Shown here: positions 26,801-60,797 of the stretch, in pieces
Layout of the letters: every line of letters starts with the position of its first letter
Position numbering within the stretch: position 1 is the stretch's first letter
Origin: Apostichopus japonicus
Lineage: Eukaryota; Echinodermata; Holothuroidea; Aspidochirotida; Stichopodidae
Reading direction: 5' to 3'
Length of the DNA stretch: 64,000 bases
Assembly: GCF_037975245.1 (NCBI RefSeq)
Contig: NC_092564.1
Coordinates: forward strand, 7,539,984 to 7,603,983
Made by a program: the position numbers and the translations under genes
The notes under the pieces: model-generated
Seen by the model: only the letters and a program-made list of their open reading frames with translations
Told to the model about the DNA's origin: nothing
Databases searched by the model: none

Positions 26801-29800
26801 GGAACCGGGGGGGCTGGGGGGCGCCAGCCCCCCCAGTGAAAAATGTGGAGGGGCGGAAGTATCATTCCGCCCCCCGCTTCGCAAGTCAGAAAACCCCTTT
26901 TTCCTTTCCAAATGAGAAAAAAATCTAATTTAGAGCACCAAATTGCATCTAAGGTCAGGTGAAAATGCAAAATTATATACAAAATGGAGTGGGTGGGTTG
27001 AAGTGTGCTATATTGCACCAAATTGCATCTGAGGCCACCTGGAAATGCAAAAAAAATCCAAAGGGGAGGGGGACACCCCCTCCCCTTATACCCCTCCCCC
27101 AGGCCGGCCATCCGTCTTCAGCCCCCCCACTCAAAAGTACCTTCCTACGCCACTGTTTGGCGTGTATTGTGTTGAGGAGCAGTATTGTAGCTCTGCAAGT
27201 AAGATAATTACGGAAATGTGGAGGACTAGGGATGACCTTGGGGTTTACAACCTAGTAATGTGGGCGGTAGTAGTACTAGGATTATAGTTTATGTGTCCTC
27301 ATGCAGCTCTACGCACTTGGCTACATTTGAAAGGGGGCCTGTGAAGGGCGCGTATAAGTATACTGTGTTGCTGAGTCAGTACAGTTTACGTTAATAATAA
27401 TAATAATAATTTATTTAATAAAGCGTTAAATCCACAAAAGTGCTCTAAAACGCTATGTAACAGTAAAAATAAATATATGACACATAATATGTAGTAAAAC
27501 TGCAGAATAAAATACAATATAGATGAGTATGAAGAATAAAAAGCATGTACGTTTGACTGTGTTGGAGTACTGCACATGAATAGAGTTGAATACACAGTTT
27601 ATATATTGCAGTAATGCTGTCTAAATAGGTAGGTTTTCAGCTTCGACTTGAATGTTGTTAGACTAGAAACAGTCCTGAGTTCAGCTGGCAGCCCATTCCA
27701 GAGGCGTGGCCCAGCCATGCATAATGCTCTGTTCCGATAGCTGTTTGTCTTGGTGATCGGCACCTCCAGACGACTCTGACCAGCAGACCGTAGGGCTCTT
27801 GTTGGCTGATAAGGGCGGATGAGATTGTGCAGGTATTTGTTTATTCAGTGAATTCATCTTAAAGTGATATACAATTTCAACAGTTATAATATTTAAACCG
27901 TAGTTAATGAAATGGGGTTCTGTGAGTGAAACATGTAGTCATATGTTTGCATTCTGTACTATGTGGCACACCTCTGTGAGGTCGGAGGTATTTAGTATGT
28001 ATTGTAATTACTTTGTTTGCTTTCATATGGGAGTGCTGTACTTGAGATGTGTATGTGTAGTTGTGTAGTTTAGATCCTCCTGCAAAAAGGAACTCGCGAA
28101 GAAGCCTCATTGGGTTATCAAAGCCGCAAGCTGAATGAAGTCAGTCTCTTACATTCATATTTAACGTCCTGGATGATTATGAATTGTCAATTGTCAACAA
28201 CTCTGTAACTGGACGACATACATTAATCTTGGAGTGACTCGAACCGGGGACCTTATGATTGGAAGGCACCGACGTTAACCACTGAGCTAACACTCCCTGA
28301 GCTAACACCCACTGAGCTAACACTCCCACGTATGTTTCCATTTTCTATGTTTTAACTTATTTTAGTTTTGACTGCACTAGATACTGGTTGCAGTTTTGCC
28401 AGGAGAGGTTTCGTGTTTTATATTGTAATTGTGTTATATTAACTTATTATTTTATCTTCATAAACTGATCCTCTATAAACTGTCTCAGTACACAGATACA
28501 ATCAAAGGGTGACTCCACCCAAACAGTAACTAACAACATCATGCTTGGATTAACATCAATGAAGACCAAAGAACCCAAATGGAATGCTTTGTGAGTACTC
28601 ACAATAGTCTCTTGAATAACACTGAATATACTTAAATGAATTGAATATGGTTCAGTTTACAAGATGGCTGCATTTCAGCAACCTTTAGGTTGGATTCTGG
28701 CTTATATAAGACTAATTATTATTATCATTATTATTAAAGAGCGCACGTACTGTACACTACAACACAGTATTTACCTAAAATTGCCAATGCAATAATACAT
28801 TCGTTCTCAACTTTGGACAAAAATTTAAATATCAAAATGAAATAGTCAAGGGGGAAAAAAATTGCAAAACTGTAGTTTAAAGGAATAATCTGATCTGGGG
28901 AGAAAACAATTTTTCACAAAGAAAGTGAAAATACTCCACATTACTAGATGAAAAGCCCATCTCTGCATATCTAAGCCCTAATATAATAAACCAAAATTAT
29001 TTTCCTGTACTTGGTAATAAGTCGATTCTGAGTCGAGTGGGGACCCGTGGCCATCCATGCCAGACGGCCACTGCATTCCTTTAGTATTATAGAGCTCTAC
29101 AAACCTGGTTGTTCCTATTGACCAAAACCTCTCTTTAAATCAACAGACTTTAACACCACCATTTCCACTTGTTTCAGTATGATATGTTATTTCAAAGGTT
29201 TAGTCTTTTCTACCTTGTGATCTTGTGAAAACTCTCATAATTTCACTCCTTGCTAAGAGAATTGAATACTGTGCATCTCTCTGTACAACAGTATTAATGC
29301 TAGTCTCATCAATAAACTACAAAATAGTGCTGCCAGAGTTATTTATAGCCGTGGAAGAAGGGATGATGACTCCATCATTTGTAAGAAGTTGCACTGGCTC
29401 CTTGTGAAAGATTGATAAATTACTTTAAAATCCTGCTACCTTAAGAACCTTATTATTGTATAAGTTTATAACTGTTTTTGCCTGTTTCTTCCTATAGTGA
29501 ACATGGAGCAGCCACTAGCCACAAGAGAAAGAGAAAGAGCTGCTGATGATCCACTTCTTTAGATATACAATGTATCAAGATTAAAAGGGAGTTTTGACAT
29601 TTTGACTCCTGACGACATGAAATTGGCGGTTGATATCCCCAAAAGTAAGAAGGTGTTATGACTTAATATTCAATATTCAATTATTGAGTATGAGGATTGT
29701 CCAAATCTGTTCTGTTTCACAAGCAAGGCATCAAACATACCCACACATATTATAACTCATCCCCACCAACCAAGGTACAAGAACAGCATTACCATCCTCT

Positions 29801-32800
29801 CCCAAACCTTTTCATACAATCAAATTATAACTCACCAACACCAACCAAGGTACCATCCTCTCCCAAACATTTGCATGCCATCATATTATAAACCAAGGTA
29901 CCATCCTCTCATCAACCTTTGCATGTCATCATATTATAACTCACTCCCTCAAACCAAGGTAACATCCTCTCATCAACCTTTGCATGCCATCATATTATAA
30001 CTCACTCCCTCCAACCAAGGTACCCTCCACTCATCAACATTTGCATGTCATCATATTATTACTCACTCCCTCCAACCAAGGTACCCTCTCTCATCAACCT
30101 TTGCATGTCATATTAAAAGTCACTCCCTCCAACCAAGGTAACATCCTCTAATCAACCTTTGCATGCCATCATATTATAACTCACTCCCTCCAACCAAGGT
30201 ACCCTCCTCATTTGCATGTCATCATATTATAACTCACTCCCTCCAACCAAGGTACCATCCTCTCCCAAACATTTGCATGTCATCATATTGTAACTCACCC
30301 CCACCAACAAAGGTACCATTCTCTCCCAAACATTTGCATGTCATCATATTATAACTCACTCCCTCCAACCAAGGTACCATCCTCTCATTAACCTTTGCAT
30401 GCCATCATATTATAACTCGCTCCCTCCAATCAAGGTACCCTCCTCTCATCAACATTTGCATGTCATCATATTATAACTCACTCCCTCCAACCAAGGTACC
30501 ATCCTCTCATCAACCTTTGCATGCCATCATATTATAACTCACTCCCTCCAACCAAGGTACCATCCTCTCATCAACATTTGCATGTCATCATATTATAACT
30601 CACTCCCTCCAACCAAGGAACCCTCCTCATGTGCATGTCATCATATTGTAACTCACTCCCTCCAACCAAGGTAACATCCTCTAATCAACCTTTGCATGCC
30701 ATCATATTATAACTCACTCCCTCCAAACAAGGTACCCTCCTCATTTGCATGTCATCATATTATAACTCACTCCCTCCAACCAAGGTACCATCCTCTCCCA
30801 AACATTTGCATGTCATCATATTGTAACTCACCCCCACCAACAAAGGTACCATCCTCTCCAAAACATTTGCATGTCATCATATTATAACTCACTCCCTCCA
30901 AACATGGTACCATCCTCTCATCAACATTTGCATGTCATCATATTATAACTCACTCCCTCCAACCAAGGTAACATCCTCTAATCAACCTTTGCATGTCTTC
31001 ATATTATAATTCACTCCCTCCAACAAAGGTAACATCCTCTCATCAACCATCGCATGTCATCATATTATAACTCACTCCCTCCAACCAAGGTTCCCTCCTC
31101 TCATCAACATTTGCATGTCATCATATTATAACTCACTCCCTCCAACCAAGGTTCCCTCCTCTCATCAACATTTGCATGTCATCATATTATAACTCACTCC
31201 CTCCAACAAAGGTAACATCCTCTCATCAACCTTCGCATGTCATCATATTATAACTCACTCCCTCCAACCAAGGTAGCATCCTCTAATCAACCTTTGCATG
31301 CCATCATATTATAACTCACTCCCTCCAACCAAGGTAACATCCTCTCATCAACATTTGCATGTCATCATATTATAACTCACTCCCTCCAACCAAGGTAACA
31401 TCCTCTCATCAACCTTTGCATGTCATCATATTATAACTCACTCCCTCCAACCAAGGTACCCTCCTCTCATCAACCTTTGCATGTCATCATATTATAACTC
31501 ACTCCCTCAAACCAAGGTACCCTCCTCTCATCAACATTTGCATGTCATCATATTATAACTCACTCCCTCCAACCAAGGTAACATCCTCTAATCAACCTTT
31601 GCATGCCATCATATTATAACTCACTCCCTCCAACCAAGGTAACATCCTCTCATCAACCTTTGCATGTCATCATATTATAACTCACTCCCTCCAACCAAGG
31701 TAGCATCCTCTAATCAACCTTTGCATGCCATCATATTATAATTCACTCCCTCCAACCAAGGTAACATCCTCTAACCAACCTTTGCATGTCATCATATTAT
31801 AACTCACTCCCTCCAACCAAGGTAACATCCTCTCATCAACCTTTGCATGTCATCATATTATAACTCACTCCCTCCAACCAAGGTAACATCCTCTCATCAA
31901 CCTTTGCATGCCATCATATTATAACTCACTCCCTCCAACCAAGGTACCCTCCTCTCATCAACATTTGCATGCAATCATATTATAACTAGCTCCCTCCAAC
32001 CAAGGTACCCTCCTCTCATCAACATTTGCATGTCATCATATTATAACTCACTCCCTCCAACCAAGGTACCATCCTCTCATCAACCTTTGCATGCCATCAT
32101 ATTATAACTCACTCCCTCCGACCAAGGTACCATCCTCTCATCAACATTTGCATGTCATCATATTATAACTCACTCCCTCCAACCAAGGTACCATCCTCTC
32201 ATCAACCTTTGCATGCCATCATATTATAACTCACTCCCTCCAACCAAGGTACCATCCTCTCATCAACATTTGCATGTCATCATATTATAACTCACTACCT
32301 CCAACCAAGGTAACATCCTCTAATCAACGTTTACATGTCATCATATTATAACTCACTCCCTCCAACCAAGGTAACATCCTCTAATCAACCTTTGCATGCC
32401 ATCATATTATAACTCACTCCCTCCAACCAAGGTAACATCCTCTCATCAACCTTTGCATGTCATCATATTGTAACTCACTCCCTCCAACCAAGGAACCCTC
32501 CTCTCATCAACATTTGCATGTCATATTATAACTCACTCCCTCCAACCAAGGTAACATCCTCTCATCAACCTTTGCATGTCATCATATTATAACTCACTCC
32601 ATCCAACCAAGGTAGCATCCTCTAATCAACCTTTGCATGTCATCATATTATAACTCACTCCCTCCAACCAAGGTAACATCCTCTAATCAACCTTTGCATG
32701 TCATCATATTATAACTCACTCCCTCCAACCAAGGTACCCTCCACTCATCAACATTTGCATGTCATCATATTATAACTCACTCCCTCCAACCAAGGTAACA

Positions 32801-35800
32801 TCCTCTCATCAACCTTTGCATGTCATCATATTGTAACTCACTCCCTCCAACCAAGGAACCCTCCTCTCATCAACATTTGCATGTCATATTATAACTCACT
32901 CCCTCCAACCAAGGTAACATCCTCTAATCAACCTTTGCATGTCATCATATTATAACTCACTCCCTCCGACCAAGGAACCCTCCTCTCATCAACATTTGCA
33001 TGTCATATTATAACTCACTCCCTCCAACCAAGGTAACATCCTCTCATCAACCTTTGCATGCCATCATATTATAACTCACTCCCTCCAACCAAGGTAACAT
33101 CCTCTAATCAACCTTTGCATGTCATCATATTATAACTCACTCCCTCCAACCAAGGTAACCTCCTCTCATCAACTTTTGCATGTCATCATATTATAACTCA
33201 CTCCCTCCAACCAAGGTAACATCCTCTAATCAACCTTTGCATGCCATCATATTATAACTCACTCCCTCCAACCAAGGTACCCTCCTCATTTGCATGTCAT
33301 CATATTATAACTCACTCCCTCCAACCAAGGTACCATCCTCTCCCAAACATTTGCATGTCATCATATTATAACTCACTCCCTCCAACCAAGGTACCATCCT
33401 CTCATCAACCTTTGCATGCCATCATATTATAACTCACTCCCTCCAACCAAGGTACCATCCTCTCCCAAACATTTGCATGCCATCATATTATAACTTACCC
33501 CCACCAACCAAGGTACCATCCTCTCATCAACCTTTGCATGCCATCATGATCATGATCACTGAAACCTAAATTACGAAGAAATGTGACATTTTCACCAGAA
33601 ACATCCAAGGCTCAAATTGTCTCCTACCTGTGGATGTAACCCATCTGGTGGATATAGTCAAGCGCCAGCAGGATATCATGAAGAATCAATGCTATTGCCG
33701 TTTCACCGAGGCCGTCTGGGAAATGCTTGTCAAGAAGATCTCTGGCTGATCCTGTAAAACAAAAGAGTGATTGTCATCAAACAGAAAAGAAATAACAAAC
33801 AAACAGGCATCAACAAAGCAAATTTTAATCAATAAACCTATGGGTCAGTGCAATGTCACAGACTCCAAATATGTCTCAAAATTAGAGTATTGATGTATGA
33901 AATGCTCAATAACAATGTTGAATACACCAAAATACACCAAATTCTGAAACAATTGTATTTATGGTTAATGATATTATAGTGATCCAGAACTGTATATAGT
34001 GGTTACATATTGCCATGAAGTCTTAAAATACAAATGACTGTGCATTACTTCTCAGATTTTACTCAAAATGAGGTTGAAAATTGATTAAACGAAAGACACT
34101 TTTCAAACGTTTTAGCAAACTGAATATTGATTAAATATCACCAAATGACTTCTGAAATCAACTCAAAAGGCTCCTTTTAAAGGAGAAATAAACCTAGCCT
34201 TTTCTGCTTAGAGAAAACCGTACTTCAACACATTGCCAACTTCTCAGCCTAACATTTCCTACGAGCCATTCAGGATAACTAAGGCAATATCTAGCCAAAT
34301 CTTTCTTCCGAAACACTTTCCAGATTCGGGAATTTTGGAAAAAAAATTGGACTTGACTGTTATCAATTCGAGCCTTAATACACAGTGTAGGAACTGAGAC
34401 AACAAGACCTAGAGATTGCTAAACAGATCGCACCTGTGGCCAACACTGGCAGTTACTATCTGATGCTAGTACTGCTAACACAAGAAACAGTTATGCGACA
34501 GAGGGGCAAGCCTGGTGCATTGTGCATTTTGTACGTTCTCTTTTCTCTGGAAACCTTTTCCCATCAGGAATAACATAATATAGTTTTCCCTTCCCTGCTC
34601 CTTCCTCCCCTTGCCTGTTTACACAACCAAATGCTTGGCACTCCGGCATTTGCACCAACTTCCGAACAATCTCCGAGAGTAAATGTACAATTCATATGCA
34701 GAGAGGGGAATTGTTTAACTAATTTTTGAAGCGCCATCCTTATTTGAAATTCACATAACGGCCGTTAACACAGTAGATGTGAAAAAAATAATGAGAACAA
34801 TTCCTGGAAATTCGGGGTAGGTAGTTTTGACTTTATTATTTCACAAAGGGTGTAATTAGTCTCTACTATGAGGTCACTGAAAAACCACAGGGTTTATTTC
34901 TAATTTAAACTAGTGATACCTGTACACCAAGTTCATGGCCATAACAATTATTAAGGTCAACTCTAACTAAAGCCATCTGGGGCAAAGGATATATACTCTA
35001 TTTGTTATCTCAGTAATGAATAGTAGTACTAATTGTTGTAAACAGATGTGATTTATCCCTCATTTTGTGACAATTTGGCAGAATTGCCAAGCAAACGTTG
35101 GTGGGATCAATGCATTCCTTAAAGCTGACCCCCAGACAGCCTTATAAATTAATCTGATCAGACTTAAATCAACTGTTTTGACCTAGTTTTCCACAGCATC
35201 AAGACCCATAGTCTTACAACTGCACACAGTTTAATTATATGCTTAGGTAACAAGTATTGTTCAGCATATTATGGTAACTATGTGGTATGTACAGTATCCT
35301 TGTAGTAATGTGTAAGCATAAGTTCATGGTAGCCTGACACACCAGCTCATTCTTTACAGAATTATGCTTCTAGGTAGATCATTGCTAGAGCGCATTAGAG
35401 CATGGTAACTATGTGGTATGTGCAGTATCTTAATAGTAATATGCAAATTGTATAAATTTATGGTAGCCTGACATACCAGCTCATTCTTTACAGAATTATG
35501 CTTCTAGGTAGATCATTGCTAGAGCGCATTAGAGCATGGTAACTATGTGGTATGTGCAGTATCTTAATAGTAATATGCAAATTGTATAAGTTTATGGTAG
35601 CCTGACATACCAGCTCATTCTTTACAGAATTATGCTTCTAGGTAGATCATTGCTAGAGCGCATTAGAGCATGGTAACTATGTGGTATGTGCAGTATCTTA
35701 ATAGTAATATGCAAATTGTATAAATTTATGGTAGCCTGACATACCAGCTCATTCTTTACAGAATTATGCTTCTAGGTAGATCACTGCTAGGGCACATTAA

Positions 35801-41800: not shown

Positions 41801-44800
41801 TGGTATTTAAACTTGTTTTGCTTGGTGACCCCAATTTTCACCTTCCTCATTGTGTCAACCTCCCACACCTTCCCCACCCCCCCCCATCCCTCATGGAGGA
41901 TGCTGTGGACTGGGAAAGGGATATACTGGGAGATGGTCCCACTATCCATTGAGAAATTTTAATATGATTAAGGGTACTCAGTTGCAACATGGTGTTATAT
42001 TTTGCAACTTTTCAAAGTAAGTCATGTTCAAACCTTTTTTTCGACTATCCATCACCTCAAAAATGTGTGGAAAGTTTAACCTACCTTGTTCCATAAGGGG
42101 TAAAACTACCCACAATTCCCTGTCAGCAACAAAAGCAGAGTAGTAGGGTAGAACATGTTCATGCTGCATTAATCTCATCAAGCTTAGCTCCTTCTGCAAA
42201 CAGTAAATATAAATGGGAATTGCGATAAAAGAAAAAATTATCATATTCTGGATTACAGTGGGAAGTCAAAACTGTCCTCAGAGGTTTTTCAGTCTATTAT
42301 ATTAACAATGTGAAACCACTGAGCCTACACACATAGGCTACTTGAAAAATGCCTGCAATGCTTTCACCTAAATTGGGTTTGATCCCTGAATAGGCCTGAG
42401 TCGGGTAGCAAAAAATCGGAACCAGATACCCGCTGTCATTACCCTGTTGGGTACTAGGTACCCGAAACTCCGGACCGAATATTGAAGAAAAAATCGCGGA
42501 ACTAGCCAAACACAATGTATCATATGTACAAAAATACCGAAATATATGTTTTCAAATCCTGACCACCTGGTAGCCTAAAATCACAAAGAGTCAACATGGA
42601 AATCTAGCCTAACATCTGTTTATTCGCACAAATTGTGATGCCTTTAGCTGTATCCATGAAATACTTTCATTATTGCTGCTATATTACACCACATGGTAAC
42701 CTAACACCATACTAAGTCAATGGGAAAATCTTGCCGAACCATCGTTTTGGAAAAAAACAAAATCACAGTTTGCGAAGCCCTTCATTACAACTTTCAATTA
42801 GCTGGAAATCGGCAAATTATTTTGAAGCAGGAATATAGTATTTTATGTACCCTGTTGCGTTGGATCGAAGGTTTCAATTTTGAGTAGTTTTCACCGGTAC
42901 AATATTTTCGTTTTCGGTGGTGAGTGATTTTATCCACACACGAAAAAGAATCATTACGAATGGCTAAAGCTTGAAATTAAAACAACCACTTAACACTACA
43001 AGAAAGTTATTTCATGAAAGTAATCTTCCACATTCGTGTGTATTGATTAATCAAAACATGCAGACCTATGGAAATATTGAAATCATAAAAGCACTCGCAT
43101 AGCAGAAATCAGGTACCCGTTTTGTGCCTTTTCGATTCAGTTATCCAAATGTTCGTCGGATACCCAGGTATCCTGGTACCCGACTTAAGCCTATCCCTGC
43201 AAATTTGAAAGAGGTTAAACGAGGCTGTAAACCTTATAGAAGCATTGGTAGAAGAAGAGATCAATTTTTCAGTAGTCAAAGCTTTGAAGAGAATATCTTC
43301 AAACTTTAAACAATACTACATCACTGATGAAACATCACCAGTTGACTTGACAGAAGAAAAGAACTGGAGCAAATAGACAGCATATCTTTCTCAAGACTGT
43401 ACCAAACCCTTTGCTGCATTATCAATACAATTTATCACCACCTACCCAGGTCATAATTAGTGTTTCCGTGAGAGATAACCATCTGTGCTTCTAGTATCAT
43501 TGTCCTTGTTGTCGTCATTATCATTATTCATTTATTCCTTCACTAGTAATACATTAAGCAATATTCATGTATAGTGCCCATGACGACAACAGCGAAACAT
43601 ATGCTAAGGTATGTGATACAAGAGAAACATTAAATTAAATTTTCATTCAATGGTTTTGTTTTTTGTTCTGTAAAATCGGTAATCAGGTACGGTGCCAATG
43701 GATGACAACAACAGAATGTCAAATGCAATCACTGGCGAGATAGGTCAAAAGTAGCAAGAAATGACATTCTAAATAATTCTTGAATTTAGAAAATTTCTAA
43801 TCTCCTATATTAGCATGATAGATTCGTCCTCAGTCATATTGACTATGTAAGTGTCAAGACTTCCTACATTTTGTTTTAATTGCTGATTTGGATAGGACTT
43901 TCTATCGCTTAGATTCAAATTTTATGGACAGCATCATCAACTTAATAATAATCATAATCATAATCATAATAATAATTATCAGCAGTTATTTTTACGACAC
44001 TTAAGCGACCACAAATGTGGGAGAAACCTGCAAGGGCTTATGGATTACAACTTACATATCGGGTGGCTTCCATTTCAACATTTTAACTCAAATTTGGAAT
44101 CTTGTCAAGTTAGAAAGTCATTTCAGATGGGAAAACCATAGATTGCTCTTGGATGAAAAACGCACTTTACTATGACCCGGCCAGGTATCGAACCCGGAAC
44201 CTCCTGATTGCTAAGCCTCATTGCTACAAATGCCACCGCCTGTATCCACTCGGCCACAGCACCGGTATAAATGAACGATGCAACCACCTCGGTAGTTTTG
44301 ATATGGCAAGATATGCTTTAATTGGTACGAGATACAAGATAAACATAACTATAAAGGAACCCTTGTAGTTTCCATTTATCCAATGCTTGACTCTATTTTT
44401 ATGATATATTGGGACTGTAATCCAAAGACAAATTTCCGCTGTCTTGGAGTTACTAATATGAGATTAATTATTATTTTTGGTAGAAATGATTGTAAGAAAA
44501 TCTGTAATAACTTACGTGTAACGAACCAAGACCTGACTCTTCTCGGTCCAGCATGTCTAAGTCCACTTTCTTCACCGATAGATAATGCCCACTGGATACA
44601 TGCCTTGCAACGTGGATGGAAGCAGATCCATCATAAACATGACCTACAATTGACCACAAGTTGAAAAAATGTATTTATAGATTGGCTGTCCAGCAAAAAG
44701 CCTTTTCAAAAAGTAAGATATAGTAGGAATGAACATGTCCAAAAATGACGGACAAAAGTGCGGCTAAAACAGACATACACATTAGTCATACTCAAACAAG

Positions 44801-49100: not shown

Positions 49101-51764
49101 TTCTAATTCTCTTAACTAGACTGAGAATAATGCATATAGACCCTTCTTCGACATTTAAGCTTTGCTTAACACTCATGTCAATACAATTCAATCAAACCCC
49201 GGCAATAGGTTAAGAAAGGAAACACAATGTAGCTCCATTAAAGTTTGACTTTTAGTAGCTGCAAACTGCTGACTTGTGGGAGCTGCTTAGCTTCTTTTGT
49301 TAATTACATTGATGCATAACACTTCGAATTGAACCCTAACCAATGTCCACCCCCCCCCCCCACTAAAAATACAAATAAGATAAATGTTGATTAGACTGCA
49401 AGAAAGTTGGCAATCTCTTTTGTAAAGTGCTCTACATTGGCTATAAGTGTATGATATAGTGTGGACATTCTTCTAAAGATAGTTGTCTGCATCTGCTTAG
49501 TATATATAACCGAAACACATGCATATCTCTATGAATATCATTTTCATAAAATTAATGGTAACTTCCTCAGTTCAGGGGATATATATTTTTCTGACAAGGA
49601 AATTACTGATGATCGTTAATGAGTGTGTTATATTAATAAATCAATACACATCTACAAATGAAACATTTCAAGGTACACTTGGGATTAGAGCAACAAAACT
49701 GGCTGTTACAAGAGCAGGCCAAACCTCCCACCCCATGACTGTAGGCTATAGAGGCCAGTGAAATTTGATAGAACATAAGACATTTCTGATTGCTGGTTTA
49801 AAAAAAACTGTTACTTTGATAGTAAACAATAGCATGGCATGGCAAAATGTTATGCAGAATGATCAACTTGCTATACAAGTAGTGTTGCCATATACGTCCG
49901 TATTTTGTCGGACAAGTCCTCAATAAATATAATGTTGAAAGTATACCGTTTTTTTTATGGCTTTTTTATATTGTAGCATTTGTTTTATTCTTGCACTGCA
50001 TTTTAAGGCATTTTAGCAATTTTCAACCATAATCTAGCCACTGTTGCTATACTTATTTATGTGTGTTGAGAAGGTATTAATTTTTTATAATTTTTAAGAT
50101 TTCTATACCATGCATATTGTATGTTAGCCTATAACCCAATGTGATACAGTATATCGATACCGGTGTGTACTGTGTATATATGTATTTATGTAATGCAATA
50201 CATGCAAAATTAATTATCGAGGCAGCTTCAAGGATACATAGCGCTAAAGTGTGTGTCGGGCAGGGGGCAGGATGTCTTCAGGAATTTCCTGTTTTGAATG
50301 TTCAGATATGGCAACCATATGTTCAAGTTCAAGATGTAAAGCAGTTTGAAAAAAGGAACCATAGCATATTATAAGAGGTGAATTCAGAATCTGCTGAACT
50401 GCTACACGACATTTGACATCAAATTATTCCTTGCATTGGGCATTTCATTTGCTCTGTCTCTACAATTGGACCAGAGGTTTGGCAAGTTTATCATCATGAT
50501 AGTGTGGTAGTATCATGGGGAGGATAGACCTAGCTATAATCCAGATATGAATAAGTTCTGCTGTGTTTATAATGGAATGCATTCAGGACTTTTTAAGTTT
50601 GGCTTAAGTTCTGTAGGTCTTCACAAGCCTTCAAACACTTGAACCAGACTTCACTAAGTATTACTATTAGGCTAAGGGCCTGCAGGCTAATTTAGCCCTA
50701 ACCTAACTCAACCCTAACCTAGTTTGTAACAGCAAAACAACGTATAGTAAACCTAACCTATCCATGACACGGCCAGTACTACTAGGCCTAGTACTAGTGA
50801 GAGTGACCCCCATGTTACTGGTGCTAGTGTTAGGCTACAGTACTTTCAATAGACTATTCCTAACGTAGGCTAGGCTAGTTAAAAAGAGCTCCAAAATTAT
50901 GAGCACCTCAGGTTTCTAACCCACCCACTTTTTCTGAAGTTTATCGTATAATTACATTAAATGTTTCAGAGAACTACCTTTACCACTAGTTTCGCAGCTT
51001 GCCTGTGCTACAACAAGCCCTGGATGTAAATACAACTACAAGTTGGTGCTATTATTGTCGAAGGTTTGCTAAACAAACAAACAAACAGAAGTTGCTTTTA
51101 TGTGACCAGCTTCATTTCACCATTTCAGATATTGAATGTCGGGCAGTATATTTTCGTTGGATCGTAACACTGATCTGTACAGATCAGTGGATCGTAACTA
51201 TATTTTGCACTAATGTAGCAGATTTTTGGTTATGCATTATGATAACACACTCATTGGTGTAATGAGCTGAAGTAGCAAGGGTTTACCTAGAGATTTTACC
51301 TCTGGTGTCGAGACTTTCACTCGTATACTCTGAAGTTGCATATATACAAGAAAATAACACATGCAGCATTTGTTATTGTTAACCATGACTAGTTCGTAAC
51401 AAATTGCACTAGAACTACTACCAGTAGTAGTAGGTCCTCGCAGAGATGTTTTCTTGCCTGCAGATTAAGCTTCAAATTATGTTTAATACATAATACAGAT
51501 TCGCAATGCTGAAATGATAGACGTAAACATATAGCGTTATGTTTGAGAGTAGTAAGTAACCAATACAGAGTTACCCTCTCTTGCAGAAACAGACAACACA
51601 CGTCTCACGTTTAGACTAGAGAAAGTGCTTCTGCTGGCCTACAGTGGGCTACTGTAACTTGTTTCTGTAGTGTTGCTGTTAGGCCTATGCCTAAGTTAAT
51701 GCATGTTGATGCAGTTGTAGCTACATGGTTAAAGCAGGGAGTTGTTATGGAACTGCCTGGTTGA
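46104..51764. other. Region upstream of STRAD exon a; no clear exon
   Basis: This probably contains the missing STRAD 5' exon(s) and the intron(s) before exon a, but no exon with a recognisable product was found on either strand. It holds a SINE copy at 46611-46902, a possible MITE near 49889-50325 (GTGTTGCCATAT with inverted ATATGGCAAC), and a few telomere-like CCTAACC words at 50690-50760. Confidence 0.4.
46611..46902 (-). mobile_element. tRNA-derived SINE, copy 2
   Basis: The second copy of the SINE at 28072-28370, with the same repeated GCTCAG head, a degraded B box (GAGTTTCGAGTCATTCC on the minus strand) and the same TCCTCCTGCAGGC tail. Confidence 0.75.
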
Positions 51765-51898
51765 AAGCATTGAAGACTCGTCCCAAACCGTGTGCCGCGC
51801 TCTGAAAAAGTTAACTTTCAGTTGCTTGCAAGTGAAGTTTTCTTCTTGTCGCTACAAAATGCAGACAGTAATGAAAAGTGATACCTTGTTATCTTTTA

Positions 51899-52173
51899 GG
51901 CCGTGGCTATTCTTACGACTAGTCGTAACAATTATAAACTATTCTTACGACATCGGCGAATTCAAGCGCAGTAAAGTAAATAAAGCAACTGCGCATGTAG
52001 TACTAGTAGGGGTAACCCTAACCCTAAACACTAACCTTAACCCTAACCGGAAATTATTGTTACTCCTAGTCGTAAAAATAGTACTCCTAGTCGTAAAAAT
52101 AGCCACGTTAAAGCAACTGCGCATGCATCTTTACAAATTATTCTTACGACTAGTTGTAAGAATAGCCACTTTG
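51899..52173. mobile_element. 275-bp TIR element nested in copy A (9-bp TSD)
   Basis: The ends read GTGGCTATTCTTACGACTAG and, inverted, GTGGCTATTCTTACAACTAG. It is flanked by TATCTTTTA at 51890-51898 and 52174-52182, where the intact homologue has a single TATCTTTA. An 8-9 bp duplication suits hAT or Mutator types. Inside are telomere-like CCCTAA units (52013-52051). Confidence 0.82.
52013..52051. repeat. Telomere-like (CCCTAA)n stretch
   Basis: Four or so CCTAA/CCCTAA units, some imperfect, lie inside the 275-bp TIR element. Confidence 0.7.
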
Positions 52174-52398
52174 TATCTTTTATCTAGACCTGAAATGTCC
52201 ATCGCTGCTATGTACACTGTGTTGTGGGTATTGACTGTAGCTGTATGTTTTGACTGTACACTAATGTATAATTACCGACAGTAGAAGCTGTGTGTGTATT
52301 TTCTGGGATCGATGGTGGTGTCTAACACTTCTGTAACACCTTATTCGAAACTAGGTCAGATTACCCGCATGAGACGTTTCTTTGTGCGCGAGTCTTAA

Positions 52399-53859
52399 AG
52401 AGGTTATGAAATGAAAAATTTTCATGTCTTAGAATGGTTTATCTACATTACTACAACACCATCCATGCACAACTTTCCGTAAATACGGCTTCAAACGCCA
52501 GAAATTCGCTGTCAAAGTATTCTCCAGAGACCTCTCGAGCTGCCACTCGTAAAAAAAAGCAAAGCTGCCCACCGCAGTTCATCTGACGTCATCAAAGGAA
52601 CCATTTCTGCCAAAGCCGACTCCCCGCTGTTTACCGATACGGCGTTACACAGTTTACTACATGTAACCACAACACTCTTCTCATCAATTGAAAATGTCTT
52701 CTCCCGAATCTTCCGATTCCGAGGAAAAATCTCTCAGGACATTCGTAAGCTTTGACGAAAATGATTTTCTTGAGGAAGAAGAGGAGGAAATAGTTTTCGA
52801 GGGTGATGAAGATAATATCGGTGTTTTTCCCGATCAATTGAGCCCCTTGCAGAAGAATTGTAAAACGATCCCGGTGGCCGAGACGCGTCGCTGCCGATCG
52901 AAGTCCCCAAGCAGAACGGTTGGACGACCCTGAACCGAAACTGGTCGGTTGAGCATAAACAAAACCACCATTATTAACCATCATATGATTTATATTATCT
53001 CGAATGTCGATGATCCTGCTACTTAACTTCGTAGCGAAGCTTCTAGAATTTTGTGTCTTATAGTGCAAGGAAAATGTGACATTCTGTACATTGCAACCCT
53101 ATAGTTCTAGTAGTGGTAACATGGGGTCTAGACCTAACTAATAGACGTTGTATAACAGGCTAGCCCATGTAATTGTATCATCCAACTGTTACGTAAAATC
53201 AAAACACAACGCCAGTTTTACCACAAAAGAAAACTTGCAGATCTAGTGTTGATTGTTCTAAAACCAACTGGCTTTAAAATTTGTGCGAAATATTAGGTAA
53301 CCATAAAAAAAATCGTCATTTGCTGTATCAAGGAGGCCTAGGCTATGGTCATAACAAGTAATTTGGCAACATTATAGGCCTACAGGCACTCGTAATGTTG
53401 TGTATGTGTAGTGTTTTGAGCGAGTCGTGTTCAAATTCTTCGATTTCTGTCATCTTTTGGAAAAGCTTGCAGTAGAAATCCGTCTTTACTTGTGGTGGAG
53501 CAACCTGATACCACATATCGGCTCGGCATTTTTAACATTTACGAGATAAATTTACATAAAAACAAACTCCAAACACCAAATCTCAATTACTACGGAGCAC
53601 TGCAACAGTGTAATGGTGTGTGTTCTCAGACGTTTAAGAATGTAAACATAGCGTCTCGGAAGTGAGCTGAGTTCCTCGACTGACGTCACGCCGCGTTACC
53701 GTAAATACAAAATTTTTAGAAAGTTTTTATTACCCTCGAATTTTTGATCATTTATTCCTGGAGGATGCAAGCTTCGTTTGACACAAATTGGGTATCATTG
53801 GAGAGCTACGAGTGTACAGAATACGATAATAAAGATTTTTTTTTCATTTCATAACCTCT
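52399..53859. mobile_element. 1,461-bp TTAA-flanked TIR element (Kolobok- or piggyBac-like)
   Basis: A perfect 20-bp terminal inverted repeat (AGAGGTTATGAAATGAAAAA) sits between TTAA target sites (52395-52398, 53860-53863). TTAA duplications mark the Kolobok and piggyBac superfamilies. The element holds one acidic open frame but no transposase domain that I can see. Confidence 0.8.
52694..52933 (+). CDS. Small acidic ORF inside the TTAA element
   Basis: An 80-codon frame starts MSSPESSDSEEKSLRTF, has a run of Glu (EEEEEE) followed by IVFEGDEDN, and ends in an Arg/Ser-rich stretch (RRCRSKSPSRT). It lies wholly within the TIR element, so it is probably the N-terminal exon or remnant of a transposon protein. 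A role as a cellular gene is not supported. Confidence 0.4.
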   Translation: MSSPESSDSEEKSLRTFVSFDENDFLEEEEEEIVFEGDEDNIGVFPDQLSPLQKNCKTIPVAETRRCRSKSPSRTVGRP

Positions 53860-54016: not shown

Positions 54017-54374
54017 AAGTACATAAGTTGTAGGAAAAGAACCTCAAAATTTGTTTGATAGAAAGGAAGAAATTATGTTTGTGATTGAGTTTCTCAGTAG
54101 GCATGAGTTAAGCTATCGGTTAGCATATATGTTATAGTTAAAGAAGATCATAGAATTCATACCATTCTTCCACTACTATTGGTACCATAATATACATACC
54201 ATGTAAAGCAACCAACAACTTCAAGTATTATAATCTTCCAATACATTATTTAATGACAAGTTTGATTGTTTTTCAGCATATGTTATCACACAATAAACTC
54301 CTAGCAGACTTTATAAGGCGTGGACATTTGTTGGATTGAAACTATCATCAAACTTTATTAAGCAGATATTGCAG

Positions 54375-54394
54375 CTTGTGCATGATGTTGTGGG
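54375..54394 (+). CDS. NPL/zinc-finger gene exon 1 (start codon)
   Basis: This micro-exon lies between an ATATTGCAG acceptor and a GTATGT donor and reads M-M-L-W-G across the junction. That recreates the (F/L)WG start of NPL domains. Coding starts at 54382. The acceptor suggests an upstream untranslated exon. Confidence 0.68.
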
Positions 54395-57300
54395 GTATGT
54401 TGTTTATTTCAATGCAATATTTTTAACAACTTTCAAACATTGTATAAGCTTTATGAAGAATATATATTTGTTACAAGAAATATATTGTATGTAGCCTATG
54501 TGGTATGATTTTAGGGATGTACAAAGAATAGTTGGTGTAGTTGTTTAAGTTATTGAGTAATCATGTCTTACATTTAATTAACATGAAAGGAACATACTAA
54601 CTATAAGGATTTGAAGTGGATTAGGCTTTATGTGATCTTATGTTTTTAGAAATTACCTAGTGGTGCAAAAGCTTGCCTTTGACTAACTTTGAGAAAATTC
54701 TCACTTACAACAGAGCAAACTCACATTTCAAATTTAAATGCGGAAGACCTACAGTAAGGTATGGCATGCACATCATATGGTCTTTCTGCGAATTAAAATA
54801 TGGCCACAAGGTGAAGAGACCTTTGTCACACTTTACTCAGGTACCTACTGCATGATGATGCAGCAATGTAAAACCCCTGAAACAGATTTCAGGTTTTTTA
54901 TTAATATTGTTTCAGACTTTGGAAGAACTGAACAGTATGAGTGCATGCAGTCAGTCAATATTTCTTTTCCATAGGTTTGACACTATTGCCAGGAAATGTC
55001 TTCACTGAGACAATTGAGTATGATGTCCATTTGTCCATGGCTGCCTTGGAAACGAGACAAAGCCATGGTACGTTCATAAACTAAGGTTGACGTTTTCATA
55101 TTTTAGTACCTTTTTCTTGACTCAGACCCCTTCGTATTTATCCTTCTGATTAAAGACAAGTATATGTTTATCCTTGATGAGGACAGAAATAAATACATGC
55201 TCCCTCTGTGAGCAAACTTGGCCATTGAACTTAACAGTAAAAAACTTCCCATGCATTTCTCAGAATCTTGTAAAGGCATTCAAAATTGATTAAATAGAAA
55301 TTACTGTACCAATGAACAATTATCATTCTTAATGACTACTGAAGAACTGTTTCTAATTTACCTTTTCTTATGAACATCATATGTTGGCCATATGTCTTTC
55401 TTCTTTAACATGTCTCATGTTTGCTGTTCAAGTTATTGATTGGTTTTCTTCTCTTCTTAACAAACATATACTAGGTGGCAAATTCCGAGAGGGAGAGGCA
55501 CAAGTGATATTACAGACAGACCAAGGTGAATTTGTTGTGTGTACTCTCATATTTGGAAGTGTACTACAACAGAACCTCAACATGAAGATTATGGCAGGAG
55601 AAAAAGTCACTCTTTACTCAGAAGGAAAAGGTGAAAAAAGTAACTGATTATCGGTGGCCAAGAAAGATATATAACCAGTCAGTTGATTTTATTGAACTCA
55701 GCATTGTATATATACAGAGTATTACTGGACTTGCACATTTATTTTCATGACCAATATCTGAGAAAGATAGCAAAGATTGTAAAATTGTGTATATTTTGTT
55801 ATGGGTTTTTTTTTGGCAGTTTCAAACTAGAGATTTTTGTTGTGCTTTTGAAACTGGCTGCAGTTACAAACATAAAATCTTTTGTCACTGGAGTGTAAAT
55901 ATGTGTCCATGTTAATATGTAGCATTAACAGTGTAAAAGTAAATCACTTTTCAAAACAAACCTTGATACGTGCCTTGGACCGAAAACAATAACATCGCAG
56001 TCTAGACTAGCCCAGTTTACATGTAGCAGTTGAGGAATAATTTCTTATTGACATTAATTTGTAAAGCCTCTTGGCTAGGAGTGGGGGGGCAAGGGGGGGA
56101 ATGAAGACGAAATACTTAATTACATTTTGTATACAGAAAATATGCACCAGTTACTATATTGAGTTTAGTGGGAAAAGGAATAAGATTCTGAAATCCAAAT
56201 TTCATCATCTATACTCTCTCCTGTTTGCAGGCACTATACACCTGACAGGTCATGCAACACTCGGAACGTCTATGAAATTGGATGGCAATAAAAACGTAGT
56301 GCTGAGTAGTACCACAGACAACGGTGAGCTGATGTACAATTAGTTTTTTTCTCTGCATGTAATGTCTGATCAATTTTTTTCTCAAAGGGAGAGTTGCTAC
56401 TGAGCACTTCTTACAGAGAGGGAAATTATGAGGAGTAAGCAGATAAAGTTTTCCTCTTTAAGTGGCAATTCCTGGGAGTTAATGATAGCAGCGTGGTCAT
56501 TGCAATGAGTGACCTGATTATAAAGAAACAAGGTGTGAACAATCATTATTCTTTAATTTTGTCACTTTAGCAATAGTGTTCATGAATGTTTTCTAATTAC
56601 TGAATGCAAATATCGAAAGGCTCAGATTTTCATTTTTTGCTTAATTGTTCTTCTTTACGTGCTTTCCATTCCTTTAAAACCCAGTATCTTCTAAGGTTAA
56701 TGATATTGAAGACACTATCCAGAGTACCGAGTCTGATATTGGTGGAGAGGACTGCTGGCAGGCTGTATGCAATTCAGGTATTAAATACCTTCTGTTCAAA
56801 CATCACACCAGTTTGACATTTCGTTTTGCCTCTTCAATAAAATGAAGTTTATATACATTCATGAACCTGTCTCATTGTACACAATACAGTTTTGGTTTTC
56901 GTATGAGTGGGAAACCGCAGATAGTCAGTCCTAACTTATAGGCAAAAATTAACATAAATGTTAATGCATGTGATTTGATATCAGAATAACTCATAGTGTT
57001 AGAAAAAACGAGAGCAATAAAGTAATAAGAATCACAAGCAGAACGTACATACAAATTTGCAAAATTAAAAAATCATCAATGAGTGCGTTGGTAACTTTAT
57101 TATGATTGCTTTATGGAGCCAAAACCTCTCTGATACCTTGTTTTTCTTTCTTCTTCCCTCATAGCTAATAATATTCTAACATGTTTGCCACTAGAAAACT
57201 GCTTACAGCATTTCCTTTGCTTGAACAGCAGAATTGAGTTTCATAAATATTGGGGGCGATGCATAATGAGCTTTAATATTAATACTTGTTTTGGACCATA

Positions 57301-59720
57301 GTCATACATGTCCCTAACAACACATAAATCTTTGTGGATATTATTTAATTAAGTCAGGCATATCTAAAAGTTGATTAGCAAAAAATCCCAGAGTATCAAA
57401 GTAGATGGTAGTGTACATCAGTGAGATGAATAAAGCTGAATTGTTCTCCATTATTTGTAGATGTGATAATAAAAGAGGAACCTCCAGATTCTGACCAAGA
57501 GTTGCTTCAGGAGAACCTCTTGACACCATCAGCATCAGAACACTCACATAATGGCGAGATTTGTGAAGCAGAAACGTCACAAGACACTTTGACTCTCACA
57601 GTACAAGAGAGGAGTAGTAAGTTATCAACAGATGATGTCTGGTTATTTATAAGCTGTTTCAGGTTACAGTCATCTTAACTTGTGCGATTTTTGCAGGAAA
57701 CATTGATTTTTCTTTGCACATACAGTACACCGCTTTTGTAAAGCAGTGGTCTGTCTGCATGTGATGACAGCTTGAGGTCATTCTGGCTGCTGTGAAAGCT
57801 TCCATTTATACAAAACAAGAGAAAAACACATGGGCAGGCACTGCTTGAAATGCATAAAGGAAGGTAAAAGCAAGATGAGCAATACAGTTGCACCCAACAT
57901 CTATCATTTATGTTAGATGGCAAAGAATTGGAACATTATTTTGCTTTGCTGCCAGATACGTGTGTTCACAGTATATTTGTATAAATCTTTTCAAGGTTCT
58001 GGACTTCTGGTGCTGAGAGTTTCAAATGTTTTGTTTAGAGGTGCATTCAAGAATGACTACAGGCACAAAATTTAATGTGATATATTTTAGATTGTTATCA
58101 GTCCTGCTGTACTTTCATACCTCTTTTATTAGTTTTTTGAGAAAGGACCCCTCAAACATGGAGAGGCTTATCAGTCAAAAGTGGCCGGACACTGTAAACT
58201 ACTGTCTGTAAACTACTGATAGCAACGCATGAATGACACAGACGCAACAGGAAATTGTAAAGACTTTTCAGGCTTCAAATGATTTGTTTATAATGCCTTC
58301 CACAGTTTCCAATGATAAATGGTATCAAATGTCATGCATGGGTGTTATGTAGCGTGAATGTAAAAGTGTAAAAGAACATTTTTGTCAGCCGAGTCGTGTA
58401 AATGTCATTCTTTCATATTGCAACATAAAATAAGCCTTTGTGTTGTTAATTTCTGTACCTTTTTCAGCAACTTGTAAACCACCTGAAATAGGAGATGTAA
58501 TCAATATTTACCTTAAGCAACTTTAAAATGTTTTATTTTTTTCATTTTCGTGTTGTTTGCAAGCTTGTAACAATTTTAGCTAACATTCAAGTTTTGTTGA
58601 AAATTTAGGTGAATCTCTGCTTGCATTTTATGCTCAAATAAAACAAAATTGTTACCTTTAGTACTTACTTAAATTCCCAAACAAACTTTTTCAAATATAA
58701 AAAAAATTATTAGCTCTTTGAAATGAATTTTGATTTCTTTCAAATTCAATGTTATCTGCTGCTTTCTTTAATGTTTATTTAATGTAATATCTCGATGTGA
58801 CATAAACAAAACATTTTGAAACACTCAATTCAAATCAAACGTTTTTTTTTTGGAAGATTGGCTTAAAAAGTAAGCAAATGAACTGATGTTTTCTTTTTGT
58901 TTAAATTACAGAAGAGGAAGCCAAGGGCAAGAATGCTAAAGAGATATCACCAATACGCTGTAATAAATGTGGAAATACTTTTAAATCCAAACACTCTCTT
59001 AAGCGTCACATGGCTTCTCATAGAAACGAAAGACCCCACAAATGCACTACCTGTGGCAAAGCGTTCAAATCTTCGAGCACCTTACAAGTTCACCTTCGAA
59101 CCCACACTGGAGAGAAGCCATACGAATGCCAGACCTGCCACAAAGCATTCACAGATTTAGGAACATGCCGCAGACATGAGAAGATCCACTCAGGCAAAAC
59201 TCCTTTCCGTTGTGAATATTGCAGTAAAGGATTTCCAGAAAATGCTCCACTAATGCGTCACGTAAGGATCCATACCGGAGAGAAGCCCTTTCCTTGCACC
59301 TCCTGTCCGAAACGGTTTTCGGACAAAGGCCAGTTGAAGAGACACCAACGATCTCATCTGAAGGGGTCAGCGAGGGCAGTGTACAACGGTCAGTGCGATG
59401 TGTGTGGTAAAGTCCTCCAGGATGCATCCTCTTTGAAAAGACACAGACTTCTGCACACAGATTTGAAACCGTATGATTGTACCATCTGTAGCAAAGCATT
59501 CAACGATCAGTCGACACTGAGACAGCACTACAGGATGCACGATCAGCCAAACAAACAGGAGAAGCATTTTGCTTGCATCAGTTGCCCTGCGAAATTGAAA
59601 ACAATCGAAGAGTGGAATCAACACAGCAGAACATGTACCAGTGTGGAGGACAATGAGACTATTTCATTAGAAATAGTAAATGTGGCCTTAAATCCAGTTA
59701 TAAAAGAGGAGCATACATAG
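54375..59720 (+). CDS. Nucleoplasmin-like domain / C2H2 zinc-finger fusion protein
   Basis: Exons 54375-54394 (ATG at 54382, or 54385), 54975-55067, 55475-55630, 56231-56323, 56685-56777, 57461-57616 and 58912-59720 join in frame to about 470 residues; all introns are phase 1. Residues about 1-105 match the nucleoplasmin-like (NPL) domain of FKBP39/46-type histone chaperones: LWGLTLLPG, DVHLSMAALE, FVVCTL, and GTIHLTGHA. A short acidic/serine linker follows. Residues about 218-443 hold C2H2 fingers with TGEKP linkers: seven clear ones and an eighth degenerate one ending in Cys. Two likely sumoylation sites (IKEE) flank the fingers. Expected role: a nuclear, DNA-binding protein that oligomerises, probably as a pentamer, through the NPL core. 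I know of no named animal family with this pairing. The 5' UTR and promoter were not located. Confidence 0.85.
54975..55067 (+). CDS. NPL/zinc-finger gene exon 2 (NPL strands 1-2)
   Basis: This 93-nt exon after TTTTCCATAG encodes LTLLPGNVFTETIEYDVHLS and then MAALE, the opening strands and signature helix-like turn of NPL domains. It ends at GTACGT in phase 1. Confidence 0.88.
55475..55630 (+). CDS. NPL/zinc-finger gene exon 3 (NPL core)
   Basis: This 156-nt exon after CATATACTAG encodes AQVILQTDQGEFVVCTL and NLNMKIMAGEKVTL, the central beta strands of the NPL core. It ends at a GTGAAA donor in phase 1. Confidence 0.9.
56231..56323 (+). CDS. NPL/zinc-finger gene exon 4 (NPL last strand)
   Basis: This 93-nt exon after CTGTTTGCAG encodes TIHLTGHATLG, the conserved closing strand of the domain, then a linker. 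It ends at GTGAGC. Confidence 0.88.
56685..56777 (+). CDS. NPL/zinc-finger gene exon 5 (linker)
   Basis: This 93-nt exon after AAAACCCAG encodes an acidic, serine-rich linker (DIEDTIQSTESD). It is placed by phase and splice sites only; there is no domain evidence. Confidence 0.65.
57461..57616 (+). CDS. NPL/zinc-finger gene exon 6 (acidic linker, IKEE site)
   Basis: This 156-nt exon after ATTTGTAG begins DVIIKEEPPDSD. The Ile-Lys-Glu-Glu fits the sumoylation consensus (hydrophobic-K-x-E). The rest is acidic and Ser/Thr-rich, and the donor is AGTAGTAAG in phase 1. Confidence 0.72.
58912..59720 (+). CDS. NPL/zinc-finger gene exon 7 (C2H2 zinc-finger array, stop)
   Basis: After AAATTACAG the exon encodes 268 residues and a stop. 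Fingers begin CNKCGNTF, CTTCGKAF, CQTCHKAF, CEYCSKGF, CTSCPKRF, CDVCGKVL and CTICSKAF; the last, CISCPAKL, ends in Cys instead of the second His. TGEKP-type linkers join fingers 2-3 and 4-5. A longer spacer precedes finger 6. The C-terminus is VIKEEHT, a second sumoylation-like site. Confidence 0.95.
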
Positions 59721-60440: not shown

Positions 60441-60445
60441 TTTAA

Positions 60446-60797
60446 AGGCATTGAAGACTCGCCCCAAACAGCGTACCGCCATCTTTAAAAGTAACTCTCC
60501 GTTGCTCGCAAGTGAAGTTTCTCTTGTCGCTACTAAATGCAGACAGTAATGAAATGTGATACCTTGCTATCTTTAGCTGGACCTGATATGTCCATCGCTG
60601 TATCGTACACTGTGCTGTGGGTATTGACCGCAGCTGTATGTATTGACTGTACACTAGTGTCTAATTACAGACGGTAGCAAGCTGTGTGTGTATTTTCTGG
60701 GATCGATGGTGGTGTCTAACACTTCTGTACACCTCATTCGAAACTAGGTCAGATAACCAGCATGAGACGTTTCTTTTTGCGCGAGTCTTCACACCCT
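60446..60797. mobile_element. TTAA-type MITE, copy B (complete)
   Basis: This 352-bp element has ends AGGCATTGAAGACTCG and, inverted, AGGGTGTGAAGACTCG, flanked by TTAA on both sides (60442-60445, 60798-60801). It is the uninterrupted relative of copy A and lets the nested insertion there be read exactly. Confidence 0.75.

Follow-up and report, generated by a model that had tools for sequence, protein, structure and literature searches.

Nucleoplasmin-like (NPL) domains have been described in three arrangements, i.e., in NPL-FKBPs, in HD-tuins with one C2H2 finger, and in nucleoplasmin without a further domain (PMC4414354). For C-terminal C2H2 clusters, the domains KRAB, SCAN, ZAD and BTB are named as N-terminal partners in a review that also states that new dimerisation domains of C2H2 proteins are still to be identified (PMC5509000); the word nucleoplasmin does not occur in the accessible part of this review. 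The BTB domains of TTK type found in arthropod transcription factors are hexameric (PMC11426971). In Holothuria glaberrima, 167 zf-C2H2 genes were counted in a 2026 preprint, and neither "NPL" nor "nucleoplasmin" occurs in the accessible part of its text (PMC13228809). Here, a 64-kb stretch of DNA from the sea cucumber Apostichopus japonicus (C4:7539984-7603983 of the host assembly, hereafter the window) was analysed, which contains a gene combining an N-terminal NPL domain with a C-terminal array of C2H2 zinc fingers. The presence of the two domains in one gene is well supported by the genomic sequence. A preceding inspection of the letters (the sequence-only reading) had put forward that no animal protein with this pairing is known to be described, and this held within the literature matches listed, none of which reports an NPL-C2H2 protein from an animal; automated database annotations, which lie outside this search, may hold it unremarked. 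The modules themselves are known, in a pairing for which no animal report was found.

The NPL-C2H2 gene of the window

Seven exons were joined into one open frame of 470 codons, running from the ATG at 54382 to the stop at 59718-59720, and all six introns are bordered by GT and AG and interrupt the frame in phase 1 (Table 1). The seven-exon chain with phase-1 introns and no frameshift, as proposed in the sequence-only reading, was thereby confirmed. In the predicted protein, the Pfam model PF17800 (NPL) matched aa 3-95 of 470 and covered profile positions 1-92 of 94 (E=2.7e-18 when only the first 118 residues were searched, 4.4e-17 with the whole protein), in agreement with the earlier assignment of an NPL domain to the first ~105 residues. 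The model zf-C2H2 (PF00096) matched at E=1.7e-34 in seven stretches, and eight fingers of the C-x2-C-x12-H type were recognised by pattern, seven of them canonical and one degenerate; the seven or eight fingers expected in the C-terminal half were thus found. The eighth finger is a C2HC finger without the usual core, and TGEKP linkers follow fingers 2 and 4. The fingers would bind DNA in a sequence-specific manner.

The NPL domain is assigned to the FKBP39/HD2 type from its sequence matches, because the Pfam NPL model matches it and the nucleoplasmin model PF03066 was absent among the 21 Pfam matches of the protein at E<=1. A search of PDB gave five matches, the best of which was the NPL domain of fly FKBP39 (4ca9, E=3.5e-5); the remaining four (E=0.11-0.6) were plant FKBP43 in second place (E=0.11) and three unrelated reductases. 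When a profile made from the window NPL and the FKBP39 and FKBP43 fragments was used, eight PDB sequences were obtained at E<=5, namely FKBP43, FKBP39, FKBP53, HDT1, HDT2, HDT3, HDT4 and an NPL-domain protein. The NPL structures of HDT1-4 had E values from 1.4e-7 to 5.5e-5 in this search, and the profile, which contains FKBP43 and FKBP39 themselves, leans towards FKBPs. The pore residues His24 and Ser26 of FKBP39 correspond to H23 and S25 in the window protein, Asp62 to N71 (Asn as in FKBP43) and Tyr86 to H95. Relatives of the NPL domain were not found in the virus and prokaryote collections, where 9 and 45 pattern matches were obtained and none was related, as expected of an animal gene.

The linker between the NPL domain and the fingers has 108 aa and is net acidic, with 24 D/E vs 8 K/R. 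The longest run of D/E in it is 2, and the 20-mer richest in acidic residues contains 7 D/E, as compared with 6 and 15, respectively, in the NPL-FKBP gene of the same genome (L013). Two VIKEE-type motifs suggest sumoylation, from the motif alone.

The splice sites were scored with generic weights taken from general knowledge. All six donors were located between the 91.6th and 99.8th percentiles among the GT sites of 40-64 kb of the window. The acceptors of exons 2, 4, 6 and 7 reached percentiles of 99.9, 100, 96 and 93, and those of exons 3 and 5 only 68 and 79. A codon-use score, trained on exons 2, 3, 4 and 7, was compared with open intron windows of matching length. For exon 6, none of 98 windows scored as high, and its other two frames scored slightly higher, so that the frame is not singled out; for exon 5, an equal or higher score was reached by 20 of 469, and the proposed frame was the best of the three. 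As both exons (93 and 156 nt) have phase-1 introns on either side, the frame of the fusion is independent of them. The frame of exon 7 closes 7 bases upstream of the acceptor with no Met before finger 1. Exons 5 and 6 likewise contain no Met, and their frames are closed 7 and 31 bases, respectively, before the acceptor. The finger exon, therefore, needs upstream exons. The gene model as a whole is well supported, and we consider it very probably correct.

NPL loci and downstream zinc fingers in the genome

At least 30 NPL loci were found in the genome (671,581,487 bases, 35 contigs). The PF17800 profile search detected 26 places, all above the cut-off; a search with window exon 3 added the window itself, C1:8560011 and C20:13957051, and a paralogue search added C6:1173243. 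A third search added no further NPL locus. The exon 1-2 peptide gave 24 listed matches at E<=1, including the window's own, and every one of them sits 336-3,551 bases upstream of a same-strand exon-3 match, which indicates genes with an NPL rather than exons matched by chance. The exon-3 peptides of the window and of 22 of the other 29 loci were aligned. Each of these 23 peptides alone matches PF17800, a partly circular result given that most of the loci had been detected with this model, and L009, L010, L017 and L022 were excluded from the alignment (A2) because the match was not a single clean frame from the locus edge. An exon resembling window exon 4 (V-Y/H-L-T-G-Y/F type, phase-1 acceptor) was observed in 19 of the 26 other NPL loci, a count that uses a motif derived from the window and has no shuffled control. 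Eleven of the 30 loci lie on contig C1, which makes up 3.2% of the genome. In three pairs (L019/L020, L024/L027 and L028/L029), the exon-3 peptides do not differ over the part that was aligned, indicating that some of the duplication is recent or that these are assembly duplicates. In a tree of the 23 peptides and two FKBPs, the window copy was nearest to the NPL-FKBP with a support of 0.325, and this placement was given no weight.

The sequence downstream of the NPL exons was read over 10 kb at 27 of the other 29 loci and over 8.5 kb in the window, i.e., at 28 loci in total. Arrays of at least two C2H2 fingers on the same strand were present at 16 of the 28 loci (14 of 26 and the window by profile, L035 by pattern), so the order of NPL followed by C2H2 recurs at 15 loci besides the window gene. 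Arrays on the opposite strand were present at none of the 28, and a strand-neutral pattern scan gave single opposite-strand finger matches in 2 of 26 loci. The C2H2 profile had no match elsewhere in the window. The best-scoring acceptor before finger 1 was in phase 1 in 13 of 15 array loci (1/3 expected, p=3e-5; L035 was not among the 15 scored). The exceptions were L020 and L033, and the first of the two finger open reading frames (ORFs) of L010 was also slightly better in phase 0. Outside the near-identical pairs L019/L020 and L028/L029, the predicted DNA-contact residues of the fingers vary between the loci. The finger pattern also matched a low-complexity site in L014 (5379) and two isolated sites in L017 (1103 and 5376); these were taken as chance and are not part of the array counts. 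The repeated order lifts the pairing of the two domains beyond chance, as far as these sequences tell, and the existence of an NPL-C2H2 gene family is well supported and very probable.

At one locus without an array, L013 (C2:2871739), an FKBP domain was detected by probe in two pieces (E=1.7e-6 and 5.7e-4), and a strongly acidic tract precedes the FKBP exons. From these matches L013 is taken as the canonical NPL-FKBP gene of the genome. A Pfam search of seven ORFs from the array-less loci L013, L014, L015, L023, L025, L026 and L030 gave no family above the cut-off; the five other array-less loci are L009, L011, L017, L024 and L027. The NPL domain may have several partner domains in this genome.

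Table 1. Exons of the NPL-C2H2 gene (window coordinates) and ORFs downstream of NPL at array-less loci (locus coordinates)
Feature	Position	Strand	Junction with next exon	Description
Exon 1	54375..54394	+	54394/54975	ATG 54382-54384; codes MMLW and the first base of G; GT donor at 98.9th percentile
Exon 2	54975..55067	+	55067/55475	NPL strands; pore motif H23-x-S25
Exon 3	55475..55630	+	55630/56231	NPL core (FVVCTL...QQNLNMKI...EKVTLYSEG); PF17800 on exon-3 peptide alone E=8.3e-7
Exon 4	56231..56323	+	56323/56685	Final NPL strand TIHLTGH, then start of linker
Exon 5	56685..56777	+	56777/57461	Acidic linker; least supported of the seven exons; skippable without frameshift
Exon 6	57461..57616	+	57616/58912	Linker with VIIKEEPPD, a sumoylation-type motif
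Exon 7	58912..59720	+		Eight fingers of C2H2 type (aa 218-443); second VIKEE motif in the tail; stop at 59718-59720
L023 ORF	8333-9253			Cys/His-containing; no Pfam family above cut-off
L025 ORF	4721-5284			No Pfam family above cut-off
L030 ORF	2373-2849	-		Cys/His-containing; no Pfam family above cut-off
L026 ORF	6149-6667			Arg/Lys-rich; no Pfam family above cut-off

Upstream of exon 1, an in-frame stop is located at 54337, and the AG directly before 54375 scored at the 71st percentile as an acceptor; a further non-coding 5' exon is possible. ORFs upstream of exon 1 (three of the nine ORFs scanned) were considered as parts of the gene and rejected, as they had no Pfam support. A short acidic ORF at 52694-52933 (+), starting MSSPESSDSEEKS, lies ~1.4 kb upstream of exon 1 with no Pfam match, and may be an unrelated gene, a 5' exon or chance. 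The gene is flanked by two diverged copies of one interspersed repeat (51761-52396 and 60442-60789), which are ~8.4-8.7 kb apart and share 80-100% identity in five blocks; a similar translated stretch occurs in L028. Elsewhere in the window, a minisatellite of ~61 copies of a 61-base unit occupies 29891-33547 and shows a strong GC skew (-0.42 in 28001-32000). A kinase-like exon at 41981-42265 (-) matched Pkinase below the cut-off (E=3.8e-4), and an ORF at 20986-21414 (-) had no Pfam match; both may resemble the STRAD pseudokinase. The stretch at 22138-22845 (+) may be left over from a retrotransposon ORF of the endonuclease/exonuclease type (PF03372, E=0.0033, below the cut-off).

A proposed ring-forming DNA binder and its alternatives

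We favour, with a probability of roughly two in three, the reading that an oligomerising NPL domain makes the protein a multivalent, sequence-specific DNA binder. The N-terminal NPL would fold as in FKBP39 and HD2 proteins, and the NPL domains would form a ring that is most likely pentameric, with each subunit carrying its own C2H2 array on a flexible linker with a SUMO-type motif. As such a ring would have one array per subunit, it would constitute a multivalent, sequence-specific DNA-binding complex, which could bind clustered sites with avidity or join distant sites, as is reported of Pita, ZIPIC and Zw5 through their ZAD domains (PMC5509000). Its role might be architectural or transcriptional. 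In FKBP39, Thr51 and Gln58 form inter-subunit hydrogen bonds (PMC4414354), and the corresponding positions are T/S and Q in all 23 aligned rows. The preservation of this contact favours a retained ring, and ring formation by the NPL proteins is considered likely.

Several points weigh against this reading. The pore Asp62 is replaced by Asn in 5 of 23 rows, including the window (Asp in 18 of 23; Asn is also found in plant FKBP43), and of the 8 paralogue exons 2 that were aligned, only 3 retain the pore His and five have Gln or Arg in its place; the pore Ser is retained in 7 of these 8, with Thr in one. The NPL of FKBP39 was reported to be a tetramer, not a pentamer (PMC5225439), and a profile of exon 3 only found no PDB chain at E<=0.01. 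For the recurrence, the C2H2 profile was itself built from plus-strand fingers of the counted loci (the pattern scan being strand-neutral), and the figure of 16 of 28 stands without a measured genome-wide background of C2H2 loci. The near-identical pairs L019/L020 and L028/L029 are part of the count as well; some of the loci are therefore not independent, and duplication in the assembly may be involved. No C2H2 array was present within 10 kb at 12 of the 28 loci, one being the NPL-FKBP and 11 having other or more distant C-termini. Furthermore, the gene and proteins are known here from the genomic sequence alone.

The two functions that the sequence-only reading had offered fared differently: a multivalent DNA clamp fits, but a locus-targeted histone chaperone is weaker. 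In the latter, the NPL ring and an acidic linker would bind histones and the fingers would direct the complex to chosen sites. The NPL of FKBP39 does cross-link to histones, with moderate and indiscriminate binding (PMC4414354), and L012, L014, L015 and L032 have plus-strand ORFs with acidic stretches (11-13 D/E in 20); these ORFs are unspliced and may lie outside the genes. However, H3 binding by Fpr4 requires its acidic A2 region, which also suffices for it (PMC5476585), and the window linker, with its D/E run of 2 and 7 D/E per 20-mer, has little of the acidity seen in the NPL-FKBP of the same genome. From this comparison, oligomerisation for DNA binding is preferred over chaperoning for this member, and the chaperone explanation seems unlikely; the paralogues with nearby acidic ORFs may differ from the window member in this respect. 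It is similarly improbable that the NPL domain no longer forms a ring and serves solely as a cofactor-docking or heteromer module on an ordinary zinc-finger factor, perhaps a KRAB-like repressor of mobile elements. The many NPL loci, some near-identical, with 11 of 30 on a single contig, recall the KRAB zinc-finger clusters (PMC5509000), and the pore residues are variable among the paralogues, but the residues at the Thr51/Gln58 interface are kept in all 23 aligned rows, apart from the exchange of T and S.

The remaining explanation, two adjacent genes of which one encodes only an NPL domain and the other the zinc fingers, is judged very improbable. Without splicing, exon 4 would run into the stop at 56341-56343, no more than 20 bases past its donor, and the 2.4 kb between exons 4 and 7 contain four stretches with an ATG and a phase-1 donor that could serve as first exons. 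These are short, however (longest 124 nt), and their density of 1.6/kb is only slightly above that of a 14-kb control stretch, which contained 17 such candidates (1.2/kb, longest 172 nt). This density is near the background; a separate start for the finger exon may still exist, and the recurrence in the genome, i.e., the same order and strand at 16 of 28 loci with a preference for phase-1 acceptors, weighs more. Beyond the multivalent DNA binder favoured here, the NPL-C2H2 proteins could be a lineage-expanded class that corresponds, in echinoderms or in holothurians, to the KRAB- and ZAD-zinc-finger families, with subunits of different arrays sharing one ring, a proposal that we regard as doubtful. 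If true, a mixed ring particle would read up to five different DNA motifs and tie distant loci together.

Comparison with described NPL and C2H2 proteins

The NPL-FKBPs (fly FKBP39, yeast Fpr4, plant FKBP43/53) share with the window protein an N-terminal NPL of the same Pfam family, and FKBP39 provides the best PDB match, with its pore motif His24-x-Ser26 preserved and its pore Asp62 and Tyr86 replaced by Asn and His. The window protein differs by its C2H2 array and weakly acidic linker, and no FKBP family was among its 21 Pfam matches (E<=1). The plant HD2 proteins or HD-tuins (HDT1-4) likewise have an NPL at the N-terminus and a C2H2 finger behind it (PMC4414354), but this finger is single and C-terminal, and is accompanied by long, highly charged, mostly acidic stretches (PMC4414354). 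The window protein has seven to eight fingers, some with TGEKP linkers, and a linker with a D/E run of 2, and it belongs to an animal multigene family. Wheat "NPL-box" C2H2 proteins, one subset of which has an NPL (PMC8375173), were set aside as a plant case that probably belongs to the HD2 group. Nucleoplasmin/nucleophosmin (NPM) has the same fold as NPL (PMC4414354), but lacks a further domain (PMC4414354), and its model PF03066 was unmatched in the window protein at E<=1.

On the zinc-finger side, the tandem fingers with TGEKP-type linkers resemble those of other C2H2 array proteins. The ZAD-, SCAN- and TTK-type BTB C2H2 proteins are alike in having an N-terminal oligomerising domain and in being lineage-expanded (PMC5509000, PMC11426971); however, none of the ZAD, SCAN, KRAB and BTB families was among the 21 Pfam matches (E<=1), and the presumed oligomeriser of the window protein is NPL. 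A COMPASS-like insulator protein of the sea urchin (PMC3784565) was considered for comparison and rejected, as it is a homeodomain protein. An expanded animal NPL-C2H2 family would add a new N-terminal partner domain for C2H2 clusters. It would be another zinc-finger expansion tied to an oligomerising domain, testable by standard biochemistry in a farmed, sequenced animal, and its members are possibly ring-shaped multivalent DNA binders, which may form an undescribed class of animal DNA-binding regulators beside the KRAB, SCAN, ZAD and BTB proteins.

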